Assembly (NCBI GenBank): GCA_011800805.1
Contig: MPNW01000127.1
Span: forward strand, 1-64,000
DNA: 64,000 nt
Source of the DNA: Hirudo medicinalis
Lineage: Eukaryota; Annelida; Clitellata; Hirudinida; Hirudinidae
Direction of reading: 5' to 3'
The position numbers and the translations under genes were made by a program. Positions 20,390-44,569 of the stretch are shown here, piece by piece. Position 1 is the stretch's first letter. Every line of letters begins with the position of its first letter. The notes under the pieces are model-generated. The model made no database searches, was not told the DNA's origin, and was given only the letters and a program-made list of their open reading frames with translations.

Positions 20390-20940
20390 ATGAAGGCAAT
20401 TTTCGTCCTCGTTGTCTTGGCAGTTGTCGGTGAGGGTCGTTGTGAAGTGCATTTAAAAATGTTATTTAAAAAAATTGTGTTTAAGAATGTAATTTACGAA
20501 TATTATTAATGTTATTAGATATAACCGAATGTAATTTTATTAATCATGAAAGTTTTAACTTTAAGAATCGAAATTGTACTTTAAAGAGCTTCATTGTTTT
20601 AAATAGCATTGCAAAGTTTTACTGAGGCACAGATTGATACAAACATCACAACCACTTCCAACAGCATCATAACCACTTCCAACAACATCACAACAACAAC
20701 CAAAAACTTGTCCAATCCTTTACGAAACTGCGTGAGTTTTTGAAAAATTTCTGACATTATTAAAGGATATTAATTGTTAATGGTTGATGTCATTAGCTCG
20801 TTTAGTTTGCTGTTAGTTAGCTCATTATTATTTTTTAAGTTATCAACAAATTACTTGTTACTGAAAGTCACTTCTTGTTACAGGTTCCATGCATGTATTT
20901 GTTGACAAGTCTTTTTTCGGTGCTCCTCTTGCGTCGTTGA
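20390..20940 (+). CDS. Small secreted/membrane-tethered Thr/Asn-rich protein, member 1, 73 aa
   Basis: Unrecognised. Exons: 20390-20429 (signal peptide MKAIFVLVVLAVV), 20607-20731, 20884-20940. Phases are 1 then 0. Exon 2 encodes LQSFTEAQIDT and then repeated NITTTS-type runs with at least two N-glycosylation sequons. Exon 3 encodes a short hydrophobic tail (CMYLLTSLFSVLLL) ending in two Arg. The plan of signal, Thr-rich spacer and hydrophobic C-terminus split into three exons at the same phases recurs in the genes at 21841, 25855 and 29925. I infer a GPI-anchored or tail-anchored surface mini-mucin; the charged end slightly favours a membrane tail over GPI. A TATATTTT lies about 50 bases before the ATG. 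Confidence 0.65.
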
Positions 20941-21765
20941 GATGCTCTTAGAAACTGGAAACTGCGTAGTCAAATTAATTACATTTAGAATTGGTTTATA
21001 ACTTTTATTAAATAATTTCATGTGACGTTATGATTGTTTTTAATTTCTGTTATTTGTTAATTATTTACTGAAGCAGTAATAAAAAACATACGCTATGATT
21101 GGTTGTCCTCTGAAATAGTTGGTAAATACAAGGAGAAAGAACATTTTTTAATAATAATCATTGAAATGACGTCACACAGTCATTAAATCTAAATGCTTAA
21201 TTTATCGAGCAGAAGAATGTAAACTAATTTTGAAAAGATAAAAAAACTGCAAATTTATTTTAATTAGAAATGAAAGTTAATGATCATGTTCGGGCAACTC
21301 CCAATGTTTGGAAATAACTTCAAATCCGATTCAGGAAGTGAAACTTTCTCTGCGATGAAGCGTTATTATGGCTATTATTGCGGTGGATGGTAAAGCAAAC
21401 TCACAAAAGATTTGGTCCATTAAAGCATTTAAACTAAAATTATTCTTGAAACACTGTGTTTTTAAAACTGACAAAAACGCAGACTTGCATAAAACCCAAT
21501 GTTGATTCAACATCTCAAAATATTAAGATTATTGAATAAAATCTGAAAACTATGTTTTAAACGGTTTAAGGAATTAAAATCAATGAAATTATCATCATAA
21601 ATATTGAATAATATAATGCAACAACAGTAACGTTTGGAGACACAAATCATAAGTTTTATTGGCAGCAGATGTGGTTTCGTAATTTTTGTTTATTTGTTGT
21701 AATATTCATCCCTACTTCCTTCCTCCGACGATTATTCTGCAGCCAGACCTGATAATTAGTTCAGC

Positions 21766-21774
21766 TATATAAAA
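21766..21774 (+). promoter_or_regulatory. TATA box of the second small mucin-like gene
   Basis: TATATAAAA stands 67 bases before the ATG at 21841, which predicts a transcription start near 21795 and a 5' UTR of about 45 bases. Confidence 0.6.
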
Positions 21775-21840
21775 CTCAGCATCTTCCTGAATTTTAAAAT
21801 ATTCTTCGCTTCAACAATTATTGTTGGTTAAGTCAAAAGA

Positions 21841-22715
21841 ATGGCAAAGTGTTTCATCTTGTGTTCTGTTATTCTCTTTGCTTTTGCAGGTTGAAACTCC
21901 ATTATTTAGATGAGTTATTTTTTCCAATTTTTTATGAATTCCAACATTTTACGAATTTACAATTTTACATCGAGAATGGAAACTTTACATTAGATCATTT
22001 TTATGAAGTGATGCGAGTAAAAGAAAAGTAATTTTCCCCAAGCTTTTCGAGTGTTTTCAGATATTCACATATTAAATTACTTCAACAAATTATTATTTGA
22101 AAATGTTTCAGTGGTTTTACGGGCCGAGGCAGACCAAACCACTGTAAATGTAGATCGTCCACATCCTACAAGTACACCAGCTGTATCCACCAGTTCACTC
22201 CAAGTAAGTTTAAAAAGTCAATTATGATTCATAATTACTTTTCAAATAAAAAAAAAATCAAACCAGCAAGCTTATAATGAGATTAATGATAAATAATGAG
22301 ATCAATATTGCGACTGTTCTTGCTTGCGTTGACTTGACTTCTAGTAATTCGAATAGTAGTACTAGTAATTCGCAATTGAAATATAGGTTAGATGACATCT
22401 TCTGATAGTAATTTATTAAAAATTTATCTTAAAGTAATAAGTCTTCTACAATATTGCATTTATTTTATATCACAACAAATCCTCACATGTTTCTAACTTT
22501 ACTTTCGCTGTATATTGCTTTTATTAATATTATCGTATTTAATATCAAAGACATTGTTGCCAATAAAATTATATATCTATTGTTGTGTTTTTATGCGAAT
22601 AAAACTGCACTTATTTTTTTTTGTTATTTAATTTGCGATTGTCAAATTTCAGGTTGGATATTCTGCCACAGTTTTGATCGCCTGCATGGCTGCGATGGCT
22701 TTCCTGAAATGTTGA
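21841..22715 (+). CDS. Small secreted/membrane-tethered protein, member 2, 67 aa
   Basis: Same three-exon plan as its neighbours: 21841-21889 (signal MAKCFILCSVILFAFA), 22112-22203, 22653-22715. Phases are again 1 then 0. Exon 2 yields VLRAEADQTTVNVDRPHP and then a Thr/Ser/Pro stretch. Exon 3 encodes VGYSATVLIACMAAMAFLKC, a hydrophobic tail with no real cytoplasmic segment, as in GPI-attachment signals. The mature protein between signal and tail would be only about 25-30 residues. I do not recognise a family; by plan it resembles arabinogalactan-type peptides or short animal GPI mucins, but this is analogy only. Confidence 0.68.
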
Positions 22716-22719
22716 CCAA

Positions 22720-25700
22720 TGTTTCTGATGGCAACAAGATGAAACTTCTAGCCTTACTTTTAAACTGTCAATGATTAGATTTTTATAAATTTTTAAGGTT
22801 CAATTCGTCCATTTTAAGTTTTTGGTTTCAAATTTTATTCCGTTAAAAATGTCCATTCAGAAGTAAAGTTTTTGTGGAAATTCCGTTTTAATTCTTTAAT
22901 TTCCAGTAAAAGTTCAATTGTAAGTGTATTCTCTGAACTACTTATTTAAAATCACTTTCCGACATTTCCATTTTTCGTAATTAAAAGAATCACGAAATTT
23001 CAACTTTCTTGAGCGAATAAGAAAGGCTTGGATTAGTTTTGGTAACTATTTTCACGAGTTGATGGTCAGACTCAAAAATACCAAGATTGAATTGTTTTTC
23101 AATGTTTTCTTAAACATAATTTACTTTCGTATTTATAACAGTAAATAGTTCGCAGACGAGTATTCTTGACCCAAATAAGTTTACTATTTGAAAGACTTTG
23201 TTTGCCATCGTCGACTATTGAAAGACTTGAGTTGTTATTTTCTAAATAATTTACAACTCATAGCATAGCTAGCCAATAATCATTGACTGCACTGTCTCAT
23301 AAGATATTAGATATTATAGCCCATTCCTAAAGAAACCTGATCTTGCCTCAAAAAATCTTTTAAGCTAGAGAATAATTTGATGTATTTATAATTTCTCCAA
23401 GATTACTTTAGGTGCTTAGAAAATTTGATGTTATCATGCAAGTGCTATTCAGAACCTGCATAACTTCATACTCAAGAGGGTCTCTGGTAAAACGTTTGTT
23501 TCCCTCAGATCGTTTATCACATTATCAAGTTTTGAAAAGTACGCTGTAGTGGAGCGAAACTCAAGCACTCGGGAGAGGAGATGTGCAAAGTACTCTTTTT
23601 AATTCGTTGTTGAAGTTTCCAGTTGAACAACGCACCTCACCAATAACTCATGACATTGGACTAGTGTTTTTTGTTGGATGCCGGAATTCCACAAGATTTT
23701 AGTCTGTTCATTGTGCAATAAACGGTGTGTTTTCCTCCCCCATTGGAAATTTGATAGCCTAGTACTGAGTCTATCACTATGCGGTCGACAGTAATTTTTA
23801 TGTCTTAATTTCAACAACACACATAAGATCCGTTAGCGTGCCATGAATCTATTTCAAACTTGCACTTAGGATTTTCAAAACGTTGAAAAGCAAAGGATTA
23901 TATTATTATTATTAATATTAGTGCTATTTTTTTAATTATTAATATTACTATGGCATGTCAAGTTTTACTGAATATCTGAATATGAATTGACATACACTTC
24001 AGTCCAATGTAACCTTTCTCAACTGAGGAAACGTCTTGAATAGTGACACCCATTCATTTCCTTGCGCTGAAACAATGGTTTGCTTTATCAACCTCAGGAT
24101 GTCAAATTTTGCGTGAAAAACATATTAATTATAATCGAAAATAATCGAAATAAGCGAAAGAAATTCAAGAACACATGAATGTTAGATAAGATTAAAAATA
24201 ATTAAAATTAAAAAATGTTAAAATCAATTTGGTTAATAACTACTTCATTAGAATGAAACGTTGAACTGCAACCAGCCTGCACTTGTGTGAAAGTTTAGCA
24301 GTTGTGAGAAAATCAGCGAAGCATAAAATTTATTCAAAAATGCTGGATGATTATCTGCTTGATACCTGCATTGAAGGGTAAATAACTTGTTCATACAAAT
24401 TTATTCCTTTGCTGAGAAATGTTTCACTCCTCGGTAACAAATTTTGGTAGAAGTTTATGAATTAACTTTACAACTTATGAGAAGTTCTTGCCTTTTTATA
24501 AGTTAAGAGATCAATCAAGGAAACTAAGCCTTTTGACTTCTTGCATCATATACACTGCTTGTACACACTACTACGACGTTGATTATGACAAATTGCGAAT
24601 TAATACGATAATGTTACTCTACCTATTTGTGATGAAAGATACACGTGATTTGCATTTCAATTCATTCTTTTATTTATTTCGTAACATTTGAGGTCATGAA
24701 TAAATCCAAGTGCGACTAATGGGATTCCATTCAATATTACGATGAGGAATCTCACATTCTTGTTGCGTTTGAATGAATCGTCGATTGGTACCAGGCAGAT
24801 TCATACTCATAAGCATCTTCATAGCTTCATAGGAATTATTCTGAAAACTTGTGTTTTAAAATTTGTTCTTTTAAAAAGCTATCTCAAATTTTGAGGGCAA
24901 GATTTTCTATTTTATACAGTTTTATTAATTAAATTAATTAAAACACTGTTAACAATAATGAGGAAAGTATTTCCGAAACAACTTGCATATACAAATCTTA
25001 AGACGTTCCCCATGCAGTAGTATGTCATACATTTTCTTATTATCACAAGCATATCATATTTTAGAAATCCCTAATTACAATAAATTGACAATAGTAGCTT
25101 GAATGCTTTCGTCAATATGTAATGAAAGAATGAAATCTGTTCAGCCCAAAATGCTTGTAAAAGATGTTTATCAATAGGTTGTCCTTGCTTTGACGTGTTC
25201 TATGAAGGGCGTCTTCAGAATTTTTCAAGATAGAAGTTGTTGACGTGAGATATTTTATTATTTATTATGATAAGAATATAACAATTAATATTATGATTAA
25301 AATATTGTTGAAATAATATATCCGAATCAGTTACTTGTACAAATAATTCGCTTGATTCATGCACCCAACTCAACTTGCATAAAAGTAATATATTTGGGCA
25401 GGAAAAGCACCATTCAGGAATATTTCAATGAGACCTTATTGTATGCAAGCCACCAACTCTGCTCTGGTTTTGATCGATTAAAAATAATTAGAAAAAGAAA
25501 CTATATATATTCATTTGCCATTTAACCTCATGCAGTGCATTCAATCGAAAATCTACAAAAAAAGAAAGAAAAGAAAATGTTGATTAAAAAGAAGTTTACT
25601 CGGGTTAGAATGAATCGTCAACATTAGGAATTTTGCAATGCAATAAGTAGGCGTTCACAGCACTTTATTGGGTGTGGTCGAGTTTACCTAAGCTGCCTTT

Positions 25701-25850
25701 GGTACCAGAGAGAGTTGGTGTAACTTCCTCGAGCATGAATGCTTAGTAAAAGAATGGATCCTATTGCCTATATTAATGGCTCGGAAGGTAACCCAGTTGT
25801 TCAAGAGAGACTTGCAAACAGTGAAAGCCAAGAGTTAGAAAAGACTAAAG
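22720..25850. other. Gene-poor interval between members 2 and 3
   Basis: About 3.1 kb of AT-rich DNA. A minus-strand frame at 23599-23820 is unassigned and lies in a locally GC-richer patch that may be an old transposon. No other gene evidence is seen. Confidence 0.45.
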
Positions 25851-25854
25851 TAAA

Positions 25855-26405
25855 ATGAAGCTTTTCATTGCACTTCTTCTTGGTGAGTTACGAATGAGAC
25901 GTGAGGACTCATAATATCCATCGAAAAATGATTTAGTTCATAATTTTCTGGTCTTTCTTTGACAGTGATTGCGGCAGCAACTTGCCAAGCAACTACAACA
26001 AACACTCCGCCAACTGAAACCAAAACGTCTGCAGCTCCTTCGACTGCACCCACAACAACCGCTCCGGTTACAGCCACAACAGCCACAACAGCCACTCCTG
26101 TCGCAGCCACAACAGCCACTCCGGTTACAGCCACTACAGCCGCTCCGGTTACAGCCACAACAGCCGCTCCGGTCTCAGCCACAACAGCTGCTCCTCCGGT
26201 TCAAACTACAATGCCAAACTCCTTGAATAAAGCTACGAACCTCTCGATAGTGAGTGTGGCACATTAATAAATTATGAAGTTATTAACTTAATCAAATAAT
26301 TAATAGCATCGTCGATGGTGATGACGTCAATCGGAATTTTATTTTTTGTTTCAGCTGCCGGAAATGATCACTATGGGCTGCTTAGTGGCCTTTTTCTTTC
26401 ATTGA
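25855..26405 (+). CDS. Small mucin-like protein, member 3, 120 aa, Thr/Ala/Pro repeats
   Basis: Exons: 25855-25882 (MKLFIALLL), 25966-26249, 26355-26405; phases 1 then 0 as in the other members. The signal peptide finishes in exon 2 (VIAAATCQ). The rest of exon 2 is a mucin-type domain with imperfect repeats of the kind TTATPVTA and TTAAPVTA, then TTMPNSLNKATNLSI. Exon 3 encodes LPEMITMGCLVAFFFH, a hydrophobic tail. The repeats predict dense O-glycosylation. The repeat array is likely to vary in length between individuals. The long antisense frame over this exon is a by-product of the Thr/Ala codons. Confidence 0.75.
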
Positions 26406-26742
26406 ATTCTCCAACTGAATTTTTATCAACGATTATCAAAGATGCAAATGCAAATATATTTGAAGATGATTTTCTATTGCTAACAATTAGTGATTACATT
26501 AGTTTAATGCAATATTACAAGCAATTTTATATTTAGGCTATCACATGTCGAATGAATTCATGTAGTAGGAATAATCAAACGTCTTCCCAGTAGTTTTCCC
26601 CTGTGTTTGTATATTAATAAAAATATTTTTAATCCTTTTTGACTTTTTTTGCGAGAAAATGACATATGTCGAAATAAACAAATATAAATTAATAAAATAT
26701 AATTATAAATTAAGGTCTGGCAAATAAAATAATAAATCTCAA

Positions 26743-26780
<38 letters not shown>
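26743..26780. repeat. (AAT)n microsatellite
   Basis: About 38 bases of AAT units; a second, less pure AAT tract lies at 26957-27025. Confidence 0.9.
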
Positions 26781-26783
<3 letters not shown>

Positions 26784-27825
26784 GCAAGAACCATACAAGA
26801 AACCTAGAAAAGATTCCAGGGCAACCTCAGCGATGTCAAAAGATTGCACTACTTGGAACTGCTGGGATTTTAAGAAAAATACTTGGCTGAATCAACTTGA
26901 TCCCTGGCAGGGATCCAGATCCAACCAGTTTCGAACACTTTTACAGTGACGTAACATAATAATAATAATAGCAATAATAATAATAATAATAATAAAATAA
27001 TAAAATAATATTAATAATAATAATGGAATTATATTATTAATAATGAAAATAACATAATAAACTCTTCGTTCGAATTTCTTGAGATTCAAATAGATTCACC
27101 TGGAGTTTAACACAGCGTCTTGCCATTAATGAAACAGCATGTATTCAACTTTTATTAATATTAATAACAATGGCTTCTTTGAGTCCATATTTTAAAAACG
27201 AGTTCAAATCGTGTCCAAAAAGGTGTCGAAAATATTCACTCGAAGTATGTTCAGCTATGTAGACTGTTGCCTCCATGTCAGTGGGTAACACGTTTTAGCC
27301 TATTCTTAGTCTCCTTTTCTCATGTCGCTCCAGAAGTATAGATCAGATTCCCTTGTGCAGAGGATCCATAAAATATTCGATGTCCTCTAGAATGTTTTTA
27401 CATACCTTTAGAACATTTGAGTCAAAAGTTGAATCTTAAATCTTGAAGTTGTCTTCAATTGCTGGTTAGGCGTAAAATAACAAGTAACGTGTAATAGGTA
27501 CCAAATAACTAAAGTATTATTATTTAAAATCATGTATTTATGATATTAATTAATAGCAATTAGTTTTATAGCAACCTGTTTTATGTAATGCAATGTCAGT
27601 GCAATATTACATTTATTAAAAAAAAACTAAAAACTAAGCGAATTAAAGAATTGATGATAATAAAAATATAAGTCATAAAGCAGTTTTAAAACACGTCCCA
27701 TTATTATGTAATGCTTAAGTCGACAACGACTTGAATATTTTTAAGTTAATTGTTATTTTCTATTGTATTGCGATTGTAATTTTTATATTATTTATTATTT
27801 TTTTATTGTATTGTATTGTATTGTA

Positions 27826-28022
27826 TTTTTTGTGAGTATTTATCCGATCTTTTGAGTGACCTATGTATATGTGAAGGCACTTTCCAATCGTTCTACCATT
27901 TATATAGAGACCCTACCCGAGGGCGCTCTCTGGCGGTGCAGACTTGGTGCAGAACACGACACATTAGGACTGTAGCCATTACGACCGCATGCCGGAACGC
28001 ATCCCATTCGGCCAACCTACAT
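27826..28022 (+). repeat. Dispersed repeat family R1, copy 2 (fullest unit)
   Basis: GC-richer than its surroundings. Carries TTTATCCGATCTTTTGAGTG, TTCTACCATTTATATAGAG, ATTACGACCGCATGC and GGAACGCATCCCATTCGGCC, in the order shared with the copies at 8690 and 60960. The opening block also occurs at 811-836 in KIF17. No open frame or terminal repeat identifies the class; a SINE or short non-autonomous DNA element are both possible. Confidence 0.7.
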
Positions 28023-29924
28023 AATTACAATTAAAACAGCAAACATTTCTTTTCTGAGAGGATTGTCTAAAACGTGGGCCTCTTTGTTAGGTAAATTAAT
28101 ATTTTCCGGAACTTCATCGATATTCAAACTCGAAATAACGAATTGAGCAAATTTCCAAATCAAACAATAATCTGATGGGTGAAATTAAACTTTTTGATTT
28201 GATCCGTTTTAATAATGTTTTCTTTTAAGTGGATGGCTTGGTTTGACCTTTCAGTGTAATATTGTTATTATATTATTATATTGCTATTGTTTACCACATA
28301 TTAACTATTATTAACGTATTTAAATTATGTTGTGACATTCAATTAAATGATGTTATTGCTTCTTTGAAGAATTTAGTTTCATAGTAAACGATACATTATT
28401 GAGAGATTTAAGTTTTTAAGTAACAAAAACTTTTAATCAGCTTTGAAACTTATTTTGGTTCTCGAATGAATTTATGACATTCATCGCAAGCAAACAGGTT
28501 TAACCACCATGCCTGTTATTCATTCTAAGCCATAACAATATTGGGCATGAATTGCAGCAACTCGTGTCCACTGAAACCAAATACTTTTGCAATGGTATTT
28601 TTTTTAACCATCTACTTGGAGCAATACCACTACCCAATGAAGCAATATTAAAATCAGTAATTAAACTGCAGACATTAAATGAAAGTTCATGTAATAAAAA
28701 TTATAGCAATGCTATTGTCATTGGTGACAACTGGTGTCAAGTACACTCCCTCACCTTTTACGTGTGAGTCACAGCAGGCTTGGAATGCCGAGTAATCTAC
28801 CGCGTTTACCTCAAAGAAAACCAGTGAAGCATAGGAAAAGGGTGGGGCTGAACAATGGATGATCAGGATTTAATAAAGCAATTTGAAGGCTCACAAGCAG
28901 TAAACAATTTTCAGAGTCTACTGGTTCAGAATCAAGTTTGAGTGAGTTTAATGTTGTCAGCTCTCAAGTGCTTCAAGAATAACGTAGCTGTTGCTTTAAT
29001 TTGTCTGCAGGTATAATTATTTTGCATTATTGTGCAAACAGAGTATTTCTAGCAGGAATTATTTATATATTTTTTATTTAATGCTTCTTATCTTATGCAA
29101 ATCTTAAAACTTTCCGTGCCTAAAAATTCATAATTGCGATATCTTTGGTGATCTTCGGGGACAAACATACTATATGTTATCGTTAATTATTATTCAAATT
29201 TATTGTAAATCAATTAATTAATGTTTATTATACATAATTCAAATTTGAATGTTATTATATTTACCAGTTATTAGTAAATTTTTGATATTTCATGTAATAG
29301 AAAGACTTCCAATCGATTTCCAAATACAAATCATTTGAATCTCCTCCTTTTATAATAATAAATTTATTTATGCTTCAAGTTAATGTTGAACAAATTCAAA
29401 CATTCAGACTTTCATCGGAAGCTTTCTTTGTCTTCTTTCTTATTTCCATACAACTGACATTTGCGACTTTTGAATGCTAAATTCGTTTTAATTGCAATCC
29501 GTGCATGTTTAATGTGATTTTAATGTATTTCGTTTCGGCATTCGAGTTAGCTCAGAGGTTTGCGTTCCTATATGAGAAAACAAAGAAATGGTCGCCCTAT
29601 TGATTACGCAAATTTGACAAGTACGAATGGTCAAAAAACGTCTCTGATGGTATTCATATGGCGTTGAAAAAAATTGTTCTTTCATGAACGATTTCTTTGC
29701 AAATATTTTTTATATTTCAAAGCAAACGCTTTATATTTTTATTCACTTCGATTTAAAACAATAGAATTTTAAATTAATTTGACAGCCTTTCGTTTCAATT
29801 AATTTTATTTGTAAATTTTAATTTGGTCATAAAATTCAGTAGGAAATTATTGGAATACTCAAACGGACATTTAGTGTTTCATTTAATTAAATTCATTTGT
29901 TTCTCAGCAGATACAAATTTAAAG

Positions 29925-30973
29925 ATGCATCATCGATCGTTCATTTTGGCGGGAATCTTTCTCGGTTTGTTTGGCGCGGTTATTTCATTTTTTTACAAGT
30001 TAAAATAAACATTTACTGATTTAATTTATCAATTCAAATGTTAATTAATTATGTAACATTTTAAAAAATATAAAAATTAATGCTTATTTATTAAGGCTTA
30101 GTTATTCGTCTGATCAACCATTTGAATTTACAGAATTTCATATTTAAATCGACATAAAATATAAAAAATTGTAGATAGGAAATTTATTAAATAATGATTT
30201 ATGTATATTAATCATTTTATTAATAAATTGAATACAGGAGGAGTTTTGGTAGCTATTAATGCTATGACTGCAACCACAGTAGCACCTGGTATGACAATGG
30301 CAGCAACTACAGCTGCCCGTGCTCCTGTCACTATGGCTGGTGCTGCTGATCTCCACGTAAGCCTTATGTGTAATATTAGTTATTAGGATAACTATGTTAT
30401 TATAATTAAGTATAATATTAATACTTATAATTAACTACAATATAAAGTGTAATATAATTAATAATACTACTACTACTACATATACTCCGATTACTTACCT
30501 TACAGCTACTTTTAAAATAAATAAAGATTTAATAACGGTTAATTTTAGACACAAACTAACTTTTAAATCAGTAACTTTACAGAACTTACTAATTGAAGCC
30601 AAAATTATAAATTATTATTATTTATTAAGTGCGATGAATGGTCGTGCAATTGTATTAACACAGAATTTCAGTTGTAAATCATTAATACCAGTGCGTAAAT
30701 ATTACATGGAGTAAATACTTTCGTTGTACGATAGGTAGATTTTTTTTGTAGGTTTTTTTGGTTAAGTAAATTAAGCTTTGTTTTGAAATTGCACATTTGG
30801 AAGTTTTTTTATTAATTGAATTTCTTTATTGTTTTTTAAATAAAATAAATACATTCTGAATAAATTATGAATAAATTATAATTATTAAATAAATTATGAT
30901 GAAGTATTAAATTCATTTCCAGTTGTCCATTTTCTCCTTGGCTTGTGTCTTCATGAGTTACCTCCTGCACTGA
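29925..30973 (+). CDS. Small mucin-like protein, member 4, 69 aa
   Basis: Exons: 29925-29964 (MHHRSFILAGIFL), 30238-30356, 30923-30973; phases 1 then 0 exactly as in members 1-3. Exon 2 encodes GGVLVAINAMTATTVAPGM and a further Ala/Thr/Met-rich stretch ending AGAADLH. Exon 3 encodes LSIFSLACVFMSYLLH, a hydrophobic tail without a following charged segment. The small residues before the tail would suit a GPI attachment site. The first exon is 40 bases, the same length as in member 1. The antisense frame is a shadow. Confidence 0.66.
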
Positions 30974-35889: not shown

Positions 35890-36900
35890 ATTATTCAACA
35901 AACTGAAGGGTCTTAAGACCACTAATACAAGCCTGTAAAATTTACATATAAAAGAGAACACAAGCCGCTCCGAATGGCAAGGATAATCAAGTATATGTTA
36001 AGTAACTATTAAAGTCAAAGTCGCGTATTAACGCATTAAAGCGAGAAACAGTATTTGAGTTAATTATTTCATTTGGCAGTGCATTCCATGGTTTAACAAT
36101 CCCAATGCAGAAAGAATATTTGGCAATGTCTGTCGAAAATTTATTGCATCGAAGTTTGAAATTATGCCGTCTAGTGCTGGCTAGGAGATACCTCAGGGGG
36201 GAGTCCGCAAAGCCATTTAGTAATTTGAAGCAGAATGTTAAGTCAGCCAGGAGGCGACGTTTCTCCAGGGTCACAAGTTTGAGAAGTCTTAGTCTTTCCT
36301 TGTAGAAATTGGCAACAGAATGTATTGATTTAGTGAATCTTTTTTGGATTTTTTCAATTCTATCAATTGGGTATTTGTGTCGAAGATTCCATACTGGTAA
36401 ACTATATTCAAGAATTTGCACGTGAGTGCAGAAGTCAAGTTTTAAGACATCCTGGTCTCTTGAAGAGAAAGATGCCCTGATCATCCATGAGACTGCTGCA
36501 GCTTTATGAGTAATGGCATCAATGTGGGTTGCAAACTTTAAGCCGGGGTCCATCATGATCCTGCTGGAGAGTCTGACCTCTGATGGGGTACTCATGACAC
36601 TCAGGATCATTTATTTTCTTTCTGCGACCCGCTGTAGAGAAAATCTCACATTTCTCTGGTGCGAGCTGCTTCCACTGAGCCACCTTGTCGAGAGCAGACT
36701 TCAGTTGGGTTTTGGACGAAGTTGGGAAGCAATAGAGCTTAACATCATCAGCAAATAGTTGCAAACAATACCAGTATCCTTGAATATGTTAGGAAGATCA
36801 TTCTATCATTGATGTACAATGAAAAGATTGTGGGGCCAAGCACACCGCTGGATACAGGAGCGATATTTGATGAAATTCCATCTACATTAACATCTGCCAT
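35890..36900 (-). mobile_element. CR1/Jockey-like LINE relic, reverse transcriptase C-terminal half
   Basis: On the minus strand the order is SGVLGPTIFSLYIND (RT motif B, about 36850-36805), LFADDVKLY (catalytic motif C) and APEKCEIFS. After a shift a long frame (36610-35987) runs from the RT thumb to KPWNALPNEIINSNTV and a stop. An AAT-type tail follows at about 35880-35900. The frame changes and loss of the 5' half make it inactive. Its end resembles the fragment at 7320-7784, so both may be one family. Confidence 0.85.
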
Positions 36901-41682: not shown

Positions 41683-43530
41683 CTATTTGTTGGAGTGAAT
41701 CTGTGCTGAAGAAATTGCGTTGGGGGCTGCAGTATTTTTCTGCGGGTGGACCTTTGAGGGGGTTCCATCGCCCGACGAAATCCTCGCCTCTAACAAACTC
41801 GAAGATTTGTTTCGATTTTCCTTGGTTTTCTTACAGCGAAAAACTTTGGACCAGAAATCTGTCAGCAGACGCCCCCAATTGATAAGCGTTTTTCTTGACC
41901 AAACCCAAACCGTGGTCGTTACGCCGACGGAGAGGGAAGCAAAAACCTGAACGAGATAAAGTTCTGTCGGGATGATGGACTTTTCCAGGCGGCAGTTTTG
42001 AGTTTCTTTTTCCCAGCCAGGAAGGCATGGTTTGTTTATCGATTCCTGAACCCATTCTTCTACCGATGCAAACTTGATGAAGTAGCAGGTTAACTGAGAA
42101 GTTGTAGTGGTTATGTAAAGCACCGAGAAGATTCCCATGCGAAAAATCAGTCTCTCGAGGCGAGTTGCGTCGTCCATGTTAAATGAAATTTTTAGTTGTT
42201 TTAAAATTTTGAACACTGAAACAAAACCAATGAAGGTGAAAAAGCTGCCAACGGCCAGGGCTGTGACCAAGGGCGAGATAGAGTACATTAGGATGGGGTT
42301 TGATCTTCGCGAGCTCACTCTGCACATTCCTAGGAGTTCATCTCCTTCCACATTCTTCGTTGCCACCATGGCACCAGCAGCAAAGCCGGGCACGACCCAA
42401 GCAATCAAATGGAAAAACAATCCGAGAGATGCTATGGCCTCCTGTCCCCATTTTCTCACCGCCGCCAAGAACCAGGAAATGCTGAGAAGGACCCACCACA
42501 CCAATCCTGCAATATCGAAGTAATACAGAACAACTGCAAACGAGGTGCACATCCAGTTAGAAACATCGGAAGTCATTAGCAGACGTCTGTCGCTGTTGCA
42601 ATGTGATTGATGCTCGTCCACCAACAGTCTGGCAGCGTAAGTGGCAGATTCAAACGCACAGCACATGGCCACATAAAGTGCAGGTTTTTCCGGGTACTTG
42701 AGGTCGCTGGCTTTCGATAAGTATGACAAAATTGTGAAGGCGCAGGAGAAGACAGAAACCATGGACCAGATTGTCAGCCATGTCTTGATGAATTCCTTGT
42801 CTTTGTGACTGAATAATACATCTGTGGAACACTTTGGCACGCACTCGCTGTCCTTTGTACTGCTGACTTCAACGTACCTCGGACTTTCGCACTTCGATTC
42901 TGGCGGAATCTTGCTTATTTGACCGAGCAACCAATCAAATTCCTTCAATACATCGCTTTCATCTTTTGTTTTCTTCCACAGAGTTTTTTCATCTTCAAAG
43001 AAATCGTGTTTTCTCAGCCTCTCATCATAATCGTGTTCGTTTGGCGGTTCGACGCAAACGTTGTAAGTGTCGCTGGAGACGGGCAGATTCTGACAGTCTA
43101 ACGAAGGTGGCCAATTGAAGCTGAGTTTTGCAAGAACAGGGGCACAACCAGCCTTCACTTGCATGCAGAACGACTTGCAAGGAGGAACTATGAAGGAGTC
43201 GCCATCTTGCTCTGAACAAATTGGAACAAACCTCGAGCAGAGAAAAAATCTCAGTAACTTCGAACATCCGACCCTGATGAGGGGCAGAAATTCATCGATT
43301 GCCTCCGCGGCTTCCCTCTGGTTGGAATGGCCGAAAGAATTTGGCATCCTTGTCATGTTATATCTCATCGTTTCGCACAGCGATATCTCGATCGGTTCGC
43401 ATCTCGCTTGTTTCGGACTGTACTTGTACGAAGAAACGAGATGTTTGCAAAATAGGACGAGAATCAAGAAGTAAATGCTCAATAAATTCTTCAAACTCGT
43501 CTTCTTCGAGATATCCATGACGCCGCACAA
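41683..43530 (-). CDS. Frizzled receptor, class 9/10 type, 615 aa, single exon
   Basis: Seven-pass Wnt receptor of the plasma membrane. Signal peptide is near residues 13-34 (SIYFLILVLF). The Frizzled cysteine-rich domain, about 44-165, has all ten cysteines and reads RYNMTRMPN, QREAAEAIDEF, LRFFLCSRFVPICSEQ, closest to Fz9/10 (Fz4 second). There follows a long acidic linker, then seven membrane segments with WWVLLSISWFLAAVRKWGQE (TM4 region). KTLINW (547-552) fits the KTxxxW Dishevelled-binding motif just after TM7. The 63-residue Ser/Lys tail ends HSNK with no PDZ ligand. The coding region has no introns although neighbours have many; several vertebrate Frizzled genes are also intronless. 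Met5 could be the start. The Fz9/10 label is by motif comparison and needs a tree. Confidence 0.93.
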   Translation of the reverse strand: MCGVMDISKKTSLKNLLSIYFLILVLFCKHLVSSYKYSPKQARCEPIEISLCETMRYNMTRMPNSFGHSNQREAAEAIDEFLPLIRVGCSKLLRFFLCSRFVPICSEQDGDSFIVPPCKSFCMQVKAGCAPVLAKLSFNWPPSLDCQNLPVSSDTYNVCVEPPNEHDYDERLRKHDFFEDEKTLWKKTKDESDVLKEFDWLLGQISKIPPESKCESPRYVEVSSTKDSECVPKCSTDVLFSHKDKEFIKTWLTIWSMVSVFSCAFTILSYLSKASDLKYPEKPALYVAMCCAFESATYAARLLVDEHQSHCNSDRRLLMTSDVSNWMCTSFAVVLYYFDIAGLVWWVLLSISWFLAAVRKWGQEAIASLGLFFHLIAWVVPGFAAGAMVATKNVEGDELLGMCRVSSRRSNPILMYSISPLVTALAVGSFFTFIGFVSVFKILKQLKISFNMDDATRLERLIFRMGIFSVLYITTTTSQLTCYFIKFASVEEWVQESINKPCLPGWEKETQNCRLEKSIIPTELYLVQVFASLSVGVTTTVWVWSRKTLINWGRLLTDFWSKVFRCKKTKENRNKSSSLLEARISSGDGTPSKVHPQKNTAAPNAISSAQIHSNK

Positions 43531-44569
43531 ATGTTGCTATGATACCAACATGGTAGCGATCCTCAAACTTCTACTTTCAAACTTCACGCGAGAGTTCTTC
43601 ACGGCTGACCGATTTTATCCTCGTTGCACCCCCACTTTTAAGGGGAAATCCATCTCCATGTATTCATGCGCGCTCACACTTCTAGGCATGTTACTCCCCG
43701 CATTCATCTGCTCTCCAATCAAAGCTCCTCTTATCTTGCTCACACTTCTTTTCATAATTATCTCATATTTTCCTTAAGATTCACCATCTATCACTCGCAG
43801 CTCCTCTCAACACATTCGAAAAATATCAGAATGTTTTCCTTGAATTTCGTGATGATCAGATAATTCTTTCAGTGGATCTTCAGTCTTGGTCTTCAATGTT
43901 TATTGAAATTCAGTTTTTAAGCTCTTGAGCTGTATTTCATTGGAAAGTGAACATCCACGAACATTGAACAATGGACGCCAATGATGCTGATAACGATTGT
44001 ACAATGATAATGTTTAAAATGATAATGATAATGATGTCAACTAAGACGACGATGCCGTTTGTGAGGGTGATGATGTTTAACAACATGTTGATTATTATGT
44101 TGTAATAATAATGTTATGAATGTAATAAATAATGTCGTGAATAATGTTGTAATGCTGAAGAATATGGGGATTCCTCAAAATCAACGTTGTCGTTTTTATT
44201 ACCTTCCATACTTAATAGCATTCGTTCACACAATATTTCCTGTTATTACCCTTTCGAAAGCATGGACAGCAAGAGGGATTGCCAAACCGATGTGCAACAC
44301 GTGAATGACGTCCATTTTCCATCCAGACATTAATAATAACTATTAATTATTTAACAAATATTAATGTATTAATGATAAAGTATTAATGATAAAATCAAAG
44401 AATATTTAAATAATTAATAAAATACTGTAATAACTGAATGACGATTATATACATGTTAATTATTAATGATTATTATCAGACATAGGGTACTTGGTACCTG
44501 TACTTATGTTCGAGTACCGATTTCAGGTACTTGTACTTGGACCTCAGAACTTGGTCCCACGTACATGAT

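Follow-up and report, generated by a model that had tools for sequence, protein, structure and literature searches.

The window analysed here is the first 64 kb of a 146,958-base contig (C127) in the 133-Mb genome of an animal, the leech Hirudo medicinalis, assembled into 1557 contigs. Between positions 20390 and 30973, its + strand carries four small gene models (genes 1 to 4) that share a three-exon plan: a first exon opening a putative signal peptide, a second for a core more or less rich in Thr, Ser or Ala, and a third for a hydrophobic C-terminal tail. A first-pass annotation had reported these models, and all four could be read exactly as described there, with the same strand, intron phases, exon lengths and protein sizes. 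Reading frames, splice-site dinucleotides and intron phases are directly visible in the DNA. All eight introns have GT-AG ends, and in every gene intron 1 is in phase 1 and intron 2 in phase 0. Intron 1 splits codon 14, 17, 10 and 14 of genes 1 to 4, respectively, each time within the signal peptide, and intron 2 always falls at the start of the hydrophobic tail, which is 18, 20, 16 and 16 residues long. Exon lengths of 40/125/57, 49/92/63, 28/284/51 and 40/119/51 bases yield proteins of 73, 67, 120 and 69 residues. Clustering is equally plain, the four genes spanning 10.6 kb on a single strand.

Gene 1 starts with a 40-base open frame (exon 1, 20390-20429; all four genes are on the + strand) that encodes the beginning of the signal peptide and ends in phase 1 at the donor TCG/GTGAGG, the slash marking the splice junction. 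Exon 2 (20607-20731), entered through a weak acceptor (AAATAG/C), completes the signal peptide, encodes a Thr/Asn-rich core with three N-glycosylation sequons, and ends at the donor TGC/GTGAGT; exon 3 (20884-20940; acceptor TTACAG/G) encodes the hydrophobic tail, which closes with RR before the stop codon. In gene 2, the signal peptide starts in a 49-base exon (21841-21889) that ends in phase 1 at a weak donor (CAG/GTTGAA). A short Thr/Ser/Pro core, weakly mucin-like, follows in exon 2 (22112-22203; acceptor TTTCAG/T, donor CAA/GTAAGT), and the hydrophobic tail and stop codon lie in exon 3 (22653-22715; acceptor TTTCAG/G). About 75 bases upstream of gene 2 exon 1 there is a TATATAAA box; with the pattern used, a TATA box was found for gene 2 only. 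TATA and poly(A) signals were set aside as evidence: only gene 2 has the former, and AT-rich DNA such as this often contains poly(A)-like hexamers by chance.

The first exon of gene 3 (25855-25882) encodes the start of a signal peptide in 28 bases and ends in phase 1 at the donor TTG/GTGAGT. Its second exon (25966-26249) is built on a 24-base tandem repeat that encodes a Thr/Ala/Pro repeat core, and its third (26355-26405; acceptor TTTCAG/C) carries the hydrophobic tail and stop codon. Gene 4 opens with a 40-base signal peptide exon (29925-29964) ending in phase 1 at a weak donor (TCG/GTTTGT), continues with an Ala/Thr/Met core in exon 2 (30238-30356; acceptor TACAG/G, donor CAC/GTAAGC) and ends with the hydrophobic tail and stop codon of exon 3 (30923-30973; acceptor TTCCAG/T). 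Upstream of gene 4, within 28980-29920, a donor-like CTGCAG/GTATAA and an acceptor-like TTTCTCAG/CAG could delimit an intron in a 5' untranslated region.

The property that separates all four models, and does so better than the scan score described below, is their guanine-plus-cytosine (GC) content, a contrast measured directly on the sequence. The GC fraction is 0.36 to 0.55 in the exons and 0.18 to 0.35 in the introns, a difference of 0.17 to 0.28 per gene. When the same exon-intron geometry was placed at random on the contig 5000 times, the exon-minus-intron contrast of genes 1 to 4 was matched by 20, 1, 6 and 0 placements, respectively, figures to be read with the caveat that Thr and Ala codons by themselves increase the GC of exon 2. 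In all four genes, exon 3 ranks within about the highest 5 to 10 percent of local windows, as exon 1 roughly does in gene 1 (8 percent) and gene 4 (11 percent).

The four genes were also compared with chance expectation by scanning for the pattern of a signal exon, a Ser/Thr core and a hydrophobic tail exon joined in phases 1/0, with splice sites scored against general consensus values. A strict scan returned gene 3 alone; an intermediate setting ranked genes 3 and 1 first, the next added gene 2, and the loosest admitted gene 4. In the loosened short-intron scan, the four genes took the first four ranks among six + strand models of the contig (23.7, 14.0, 6.6 and 5.3, then 1.0 and 0.3) and the minus strand gave a single model (score -2.7); these counts are partly post hoc, as the thresholds for trailing length and Ser/Thr share were relaxed after the four genes were known. 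The first-pass annotation had proposed looking for the same plan elsewhere in the genome, and about 125 kb outside the contig was covered. Across 16 places (124,604 called bases, both strands), which were taken at regular contig numbers rather than at random and of which one consisted entirely of N and several partly of N, one model of the phase 1/0 plan was found, with a score of 4.2. Third-order Markov sequence amounting to 6000 strand-kb contained 15 models of the plan, two of them at 5.25 or above. A candidate for a fifth member (28679-29107, score 1.0) has weak donors and exons lower in GC than its introns, and was rejected for these reasons. Composition alone was likewise rejected as evidence: there are 38 Ser/Thr-rich stretches in the 16 sampled places and 21 on the contig, and among those 21 the core of gene 3 is the only one from the four genes to pass a plain Ser/Thr search. 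Gene 3 is convincing by itself and gene 1 is good; genes 2 and 4 have weaker splice sites and depend on GC contrast, shared phases and clustering.

The encoded proteins share an organisation that their sequences do not. By a simple -3,-1 rule, all four have a hydrophobic N-terminus with an allowed cleavage site; each has three or four such sites, one of which, with Ala at -1, lies at residue 18 to 23 and coincides with the start of the core in every case. Ser and Thr together make up 0.42, 0.36, 0.40 and 0.23 of the cores of genes 1 to 4. The core of gene 3 is 86 residues of mainly Thr, Ala and Pro, that of gene 1 contains Thr runs, and runs of at least three Thr occur in genes 1 and 3. The mucin-like character that the first-pass annotation assigned to all four cores is strong in these two genes and mild in genes 2 and 4. 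The cores would be expected to be disordered. Charged residues (K, R, D, E) are few, at three to seven per protein. In Pfam, gene 1 gave a New_glue match of 19.2 bits, below the cut-off of 31, which is probably compositional; genes 2 to 4 gave no New_glue match.

The tails have hydrophobic cores of 12 to 15 residues followed by only one or two more residues, and in all four proteins pairs of small residues that could serve as omega and omega+2 positions lie 4 to 14 residues upstream of the hydrophobic core. According to a published review, a glycosylphosphatidylinositol (GPI) attachment signal comprises a small residue at omega and omega+2, a spacer, and a C-terminal hydrophobic stretch of about 20 residues (PMC7125958). 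PIG-T/Gpi16, a subunit of the GPI transamidase, is encoded in the genome. Because their hydrophobic cores are short, small-residue pairs lie upstream and few residues follow, the tails appear to resemble a GPI signal more closely than a membrane helix, although they fall short of that length, and the tethering by GPI anchor or membrane segment that the first-pass annotation had proposed is plausible.

Our favoured explanation, which we hold with somewhat better than even confidence, is that 20390-30973 contains four small protein genes whose secreted precursors would mature into mucin-like, glycan-carrying peptides, secreted or, most likely, GPI-anchored at the cell surface. The anatomy of the models is real and probably genic, and the genes are probably expressed. 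Exon 1 and the start of exon 2 would provide a cleavable signal peptide; exon 2 would provide a short core of disordered sequence with abundant Thr, Ser and Ala, bearing O-linked sugars and, in gene 1, including the three N-glycosylation sequons; and exon 3 would provide a hydrophobic tail, most likely a GPI-attachment signal, that is removed. The mature product would be a glycopeptide of approximately 20 to 85 residues tethered to the outer surface of the cell, where it may carry glycans or belong to a surface coat. That the genes are expressed and spliced, that their products are cleaved, glycosylated and attached to GPI, and that they have this role is inferred from the sequence.

Several findings weigh against this explanation, some given here and the others beside the alternatives on which they bear. 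Homology between the proteins was not detectable in any of the six pairs when compared with domain-wise shuffles (p = 0.19, 0.19, 0.26, 0.72, 0.25 and 0.06), which bears out the earlier statement that the four sequences barely resemble each other; of 18 comparisons between single domains, three fell below p = 0.05 (0.008, 0.028 and 0.034). The DNA of the four loci showed no similarity beyond chance. A genome search with each gene returned that gene as its sole match, in searches that score the best candidates only and in which exons 1 and 3 of gene 3 and exon 1 of gene 1 missed themselves. Gene 1 also matched contig C142 at the DNA level (5 of 6 matches), but the matching sequence is a low-complexity repeat and was rejected as a paralog. 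When a profile of the four genes was run against 5.8 billion proteins and 7987 candidates were scored, a single match was obtained, P0161 (E = 1.8). No ortholog in another species appeared in this single protein search, which scored the 7987 candidates sharing most words and had low sensitivity: gene 4 itself obtained 27.7 bits in a local trial with a similar alignment, and relatives of gene 4 would hardly be findable unless very close. P0161 reads part of the gene 4 core, identical at 21 of 22 residues, and then continues into intron 2. P0161 probably stems from another assembly of this species, which would make it another allele of gene 4 and suggests that the exon frame is kept in that allele. 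Between the two, 1 of 22 exon codons is changed versus 4 of 25 intron codons, a difference that is not significant (p = 0.35). The first-pass annotation had also proposed rapid evolution; this one replacement in 22 codons against a probable allele is the sole comparison that bears on it, and it does not establish the proposal.

We considered whether the genes are real and unrelated, that is, small secreted-protein genes of separate origin, or gathered separately, with a common layout. Phase 1 introns are frequent in signal peptides, so unrelated genes could be alike in this respect, and neither the proteins nor the loci show pairwise similarity beyond that of composition, each gene matching only itself in the genome. 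Against this stand the agreement of the 1/0 phase pair and of both intron placements in all four genes, within 10.6 kb and on one strand, and the argument made for Drosophila Eig71Ee and Sgs genes, in the papers cited below, that such genes can lose alignable sequence yet keep an intron. We regard separate origin as a rather doubtful explanation. The four genes have the same number of introns in the same phases and places, and, because the phases are identical and the genes adjoin each other, common descent by tandem duplication is favoured, but without sequence support. The first-pass claim of a tandemly expanded, rapidly evolving family thus stands on gene structure and position: the common plan and the tight one-strand cluster speak for it, and the absence of detectable homology speaks against it. 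Alternatively, two or more of the models could have arisen by chance, as open frames that happen to line up in AT-rich DNA, genes 2 and 4 being the likeliest to have done so. The splice sites of both genes are weak, their cores are only mildly Ser/Thr-rich, and exon 1 is not GC-rich in genes 2 and 3 (ranks of 31 and 39 percent). Reversed real sequence (approximately 542 called strand-kb) contained six phase 1/0 models, of which two scored high (12.4 and 11.7) and surpassed genes 2 and 4. When phases were left free, the sampled places yielded 14 models, reversed sequence 27 and Markov sequence 136, of which 4, 7 and 24, respectively, reached the level of gene 4 (5.25 or above), and the minus strand of the contig gave one model at 7.8. 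Genes 2 and 4 therefore do not stand out when only splice sites and composition are scored. Their GC contrast, equalled in one and none of the 5000 placements, argues otherwise: the two strong models from reversed sequence had contrasts of only about 0.10 and 0.02, and in the two next-best models of the window the contrast is negative, the exons being poorer in GC than the introns. We consider it improbable that chance accounts for two or more of the models.

The genes may also be real and their tails something other than GPI signals, which we think unlikely; the products would then be secreted, with intron 2 retained, or be tiny type I membrane proteins. Retention of intron 2 would add only 3, 7, 5 or 9 residues in genes 1 to 4 before a stop codon and would give a predicted soluble form, but in an AT-rich genome a retained intron would be expected to run into a stop codon early in any case. 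The RR and KC at the C-terminal ends of genes 1 and 2 suit a stop-transfer sequence and are untypical of a GPI signal, and the uncharged run in the tail of gene 2 reaches 18 residues. The hydrophobic cores fall below the approximately 20 residues given for GPI signals in the review (PMC7125958). A membrane helix would also call for more than the 12 to 15 residues of these cores, and the one or two residues after them are as in GPI signals. Processed antimicrobial or signalling peptides, with the core as a propeptide and the tail as the active part, would fit small precursors with a signal peptide, and gene 2 has a sub-threshold Pfam match to Penaeidin (E = 0.059; 14.6 bits against a cut-off of 25). 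By eye, the four proteins do not have a cysteine pattern in common and no dibasic site precedes the tail, and their charged residues are few, which makes this a very improbable function. Finally, when introns of up to 2000 bases were admitted to the scan, gene 3 came first and was followed by a hybrid of gene 1 exon 1 with the core and tail of gene 2 (score 15.6), which was preferred to the two genes kept apart and counts against our favoured explanation, and the core and tail of gene 4 were joined to an upstream first exon (score 1.2). Since all signal, core and tail exons are phase-compatible and the hybrid of genes 1 and 2 scored high, splicing across units is conceivable. The locus could then be one family recognisable by its exon modules (signal, core and tail, in phases 1 and 0), with sequence identity erased and mixed coat glycopeptides as products; we would give this very little credence.

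Four small, separately spliced genes for GPI-anchored glycopeptides, our preferred explanation, would have their closest precedents among the glue genes of Drosophila. According to published accounts (PMC6352337, PMC10835880), a phase 1 intron in the signal peptide is common to five of eight glue genes, and Eig71Ee is grouped with the Sgs genes by that intron though its sequence does not align. According to the same material, Sgs1, Sgs3, Sgs7, Sgs8 and Eig71Ee resemble the leech genes in this intron, which in the leech divides one of codons 10 to 17 in all four genes; in the Thr-rich repeat cores and tight clusters of some members; and in having unalignable members whose kinship is suggested by intron position. 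Unlike the leech genes with their three coding exons, the four Sgs genes are described there as having two, and the Sgs and Eig71Ee products as having a conserved cysteine-containing C-terminal motif, no hydrophobic tail exon, and the fate of a secreted, unanchored glue. By eye, no exact copy of the motif IRXC[L/V]C is present in the four leech proteins, LRNCVPC in gene 1 being a near miss. Judged from their sequences, the four genes are not members of the Sgs/Eig71Ee glue family, because they lack this motif and have three exons. Short "new glue" genes with Thr runs adjoin some Drosophila glue genes (PMC10835880). These New_glue (ng) genes are like the leech genes in encoding fewer than 180 residues, with a signal peptide and an Ala-rich region with Thr runs, and differ in being intronless with an Arg/Lys-rich C-terminus, where the leech genes have two introns and hydrophobic tails (PMC10835880).

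Tiny GPI-anchored proteins offer a second set of likenesses. The precursor of mammalian CD52 comprises a signal peptide, a short glycosylated peptide, a GPI signal and little else. This tiny precursor resembles those of the leech in plan, and its gene structure differs from the three-exon plan. Plant arabinogalactan (AG) peptides also derive from tiny precursors with a signal peptide, a short Ala/Ser/Thr/Pro core and a GPI signal; theirs is a hydroxyproline arabinogalactan chemistry, and no relation to the leech genes is expected. TcSMUG genes are intronless. They combine a signal peptide, a short Thr-rich core and a GPI signal in a protist multigene family that has approximately 20 to 50 members and shows few polymorphisms, unlike the four dissimilar, single-copy, intron-containing animal genes of the leech (PMC6544316). 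CD52, with 12 residues, is given in a review as the smallest mammalian GPI-anchored protein (PMC7125958), and it demonstrates that so short an anchored peptide can be a genuine protein of the cell surface. Our literature search for tandem, fast-evolving or mini GPI mucins found nothing of the exact three-exon plan among the papers listed. The first-pass statement that no named family has this plan thus holds for the exact arrangement in the literature searched, and the kind itself is already known, from fast-changing glue and coat proteins such as those of Drosophila and from tiny GPI-anchored proteins such as CD52.

If these genes are real, they are hard to annotate: homology search fails on genes so short, so low in complexity and so divergent, and the exon plan is the main means of finding them. 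The pattern of the Drosophila glue genes, in which intron position outlasts sequence similarity, would then hold in another animal lineage as well, and tiny anchored glycoproteins overlooked in other genomes could be sought with the same template.

Other features were observed in the window and elsewhere in the genome. The minus strand at 41683-43536 encodes a complete Frizzled in one open frame, with 617 residues and both Fz and Frizzled domains; its closest named relatives share only about 35 to 37% identity with it, and the other assembly differs from it at 3 of 611 residues. P0002 is an 895-residue protein with a row of Fz cysteine-rich domains, an unusual tandem array, and no Frizzled membrane domain listed. 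Also on the minus strand, 35987-36610 is a 207-residue open frame that by eye resembles the end of a non-long-terminal-repeat retrotransposon reverse transcriptase and has no Pfam match. A piece of mitochondrial COX1, read with the invertebrate mitochondrial code (code 5, set beforehand), lies at about 1486-2370 of C456:10702-14193 and is partly repeated around an N; as it sits in a 112-kb contig, it may be a nuclear mitochondrial insert or an assembly join. Among the 120 of 2710 matches listed for COX1, the best named relatives share 70 to 72% identity. Searches for Pfam RR cuticle proteins and for nematode cuticle collagens yielded no match, but the control genomes gave none either, and these negatives therefore do not demonstrate absence. 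A second open frame of the COX1 family, 639 residues without stops, occurs at C459:19263-23699 in a 55.7-kb contig and is possibly bacterial, which would point to possible contaminant or symbiont contigs. Matches of the EF-1-alpha type on C326 and C568 have equal spacing on both contigs, which suggests that the assembly holds some loci as two haplotypes.

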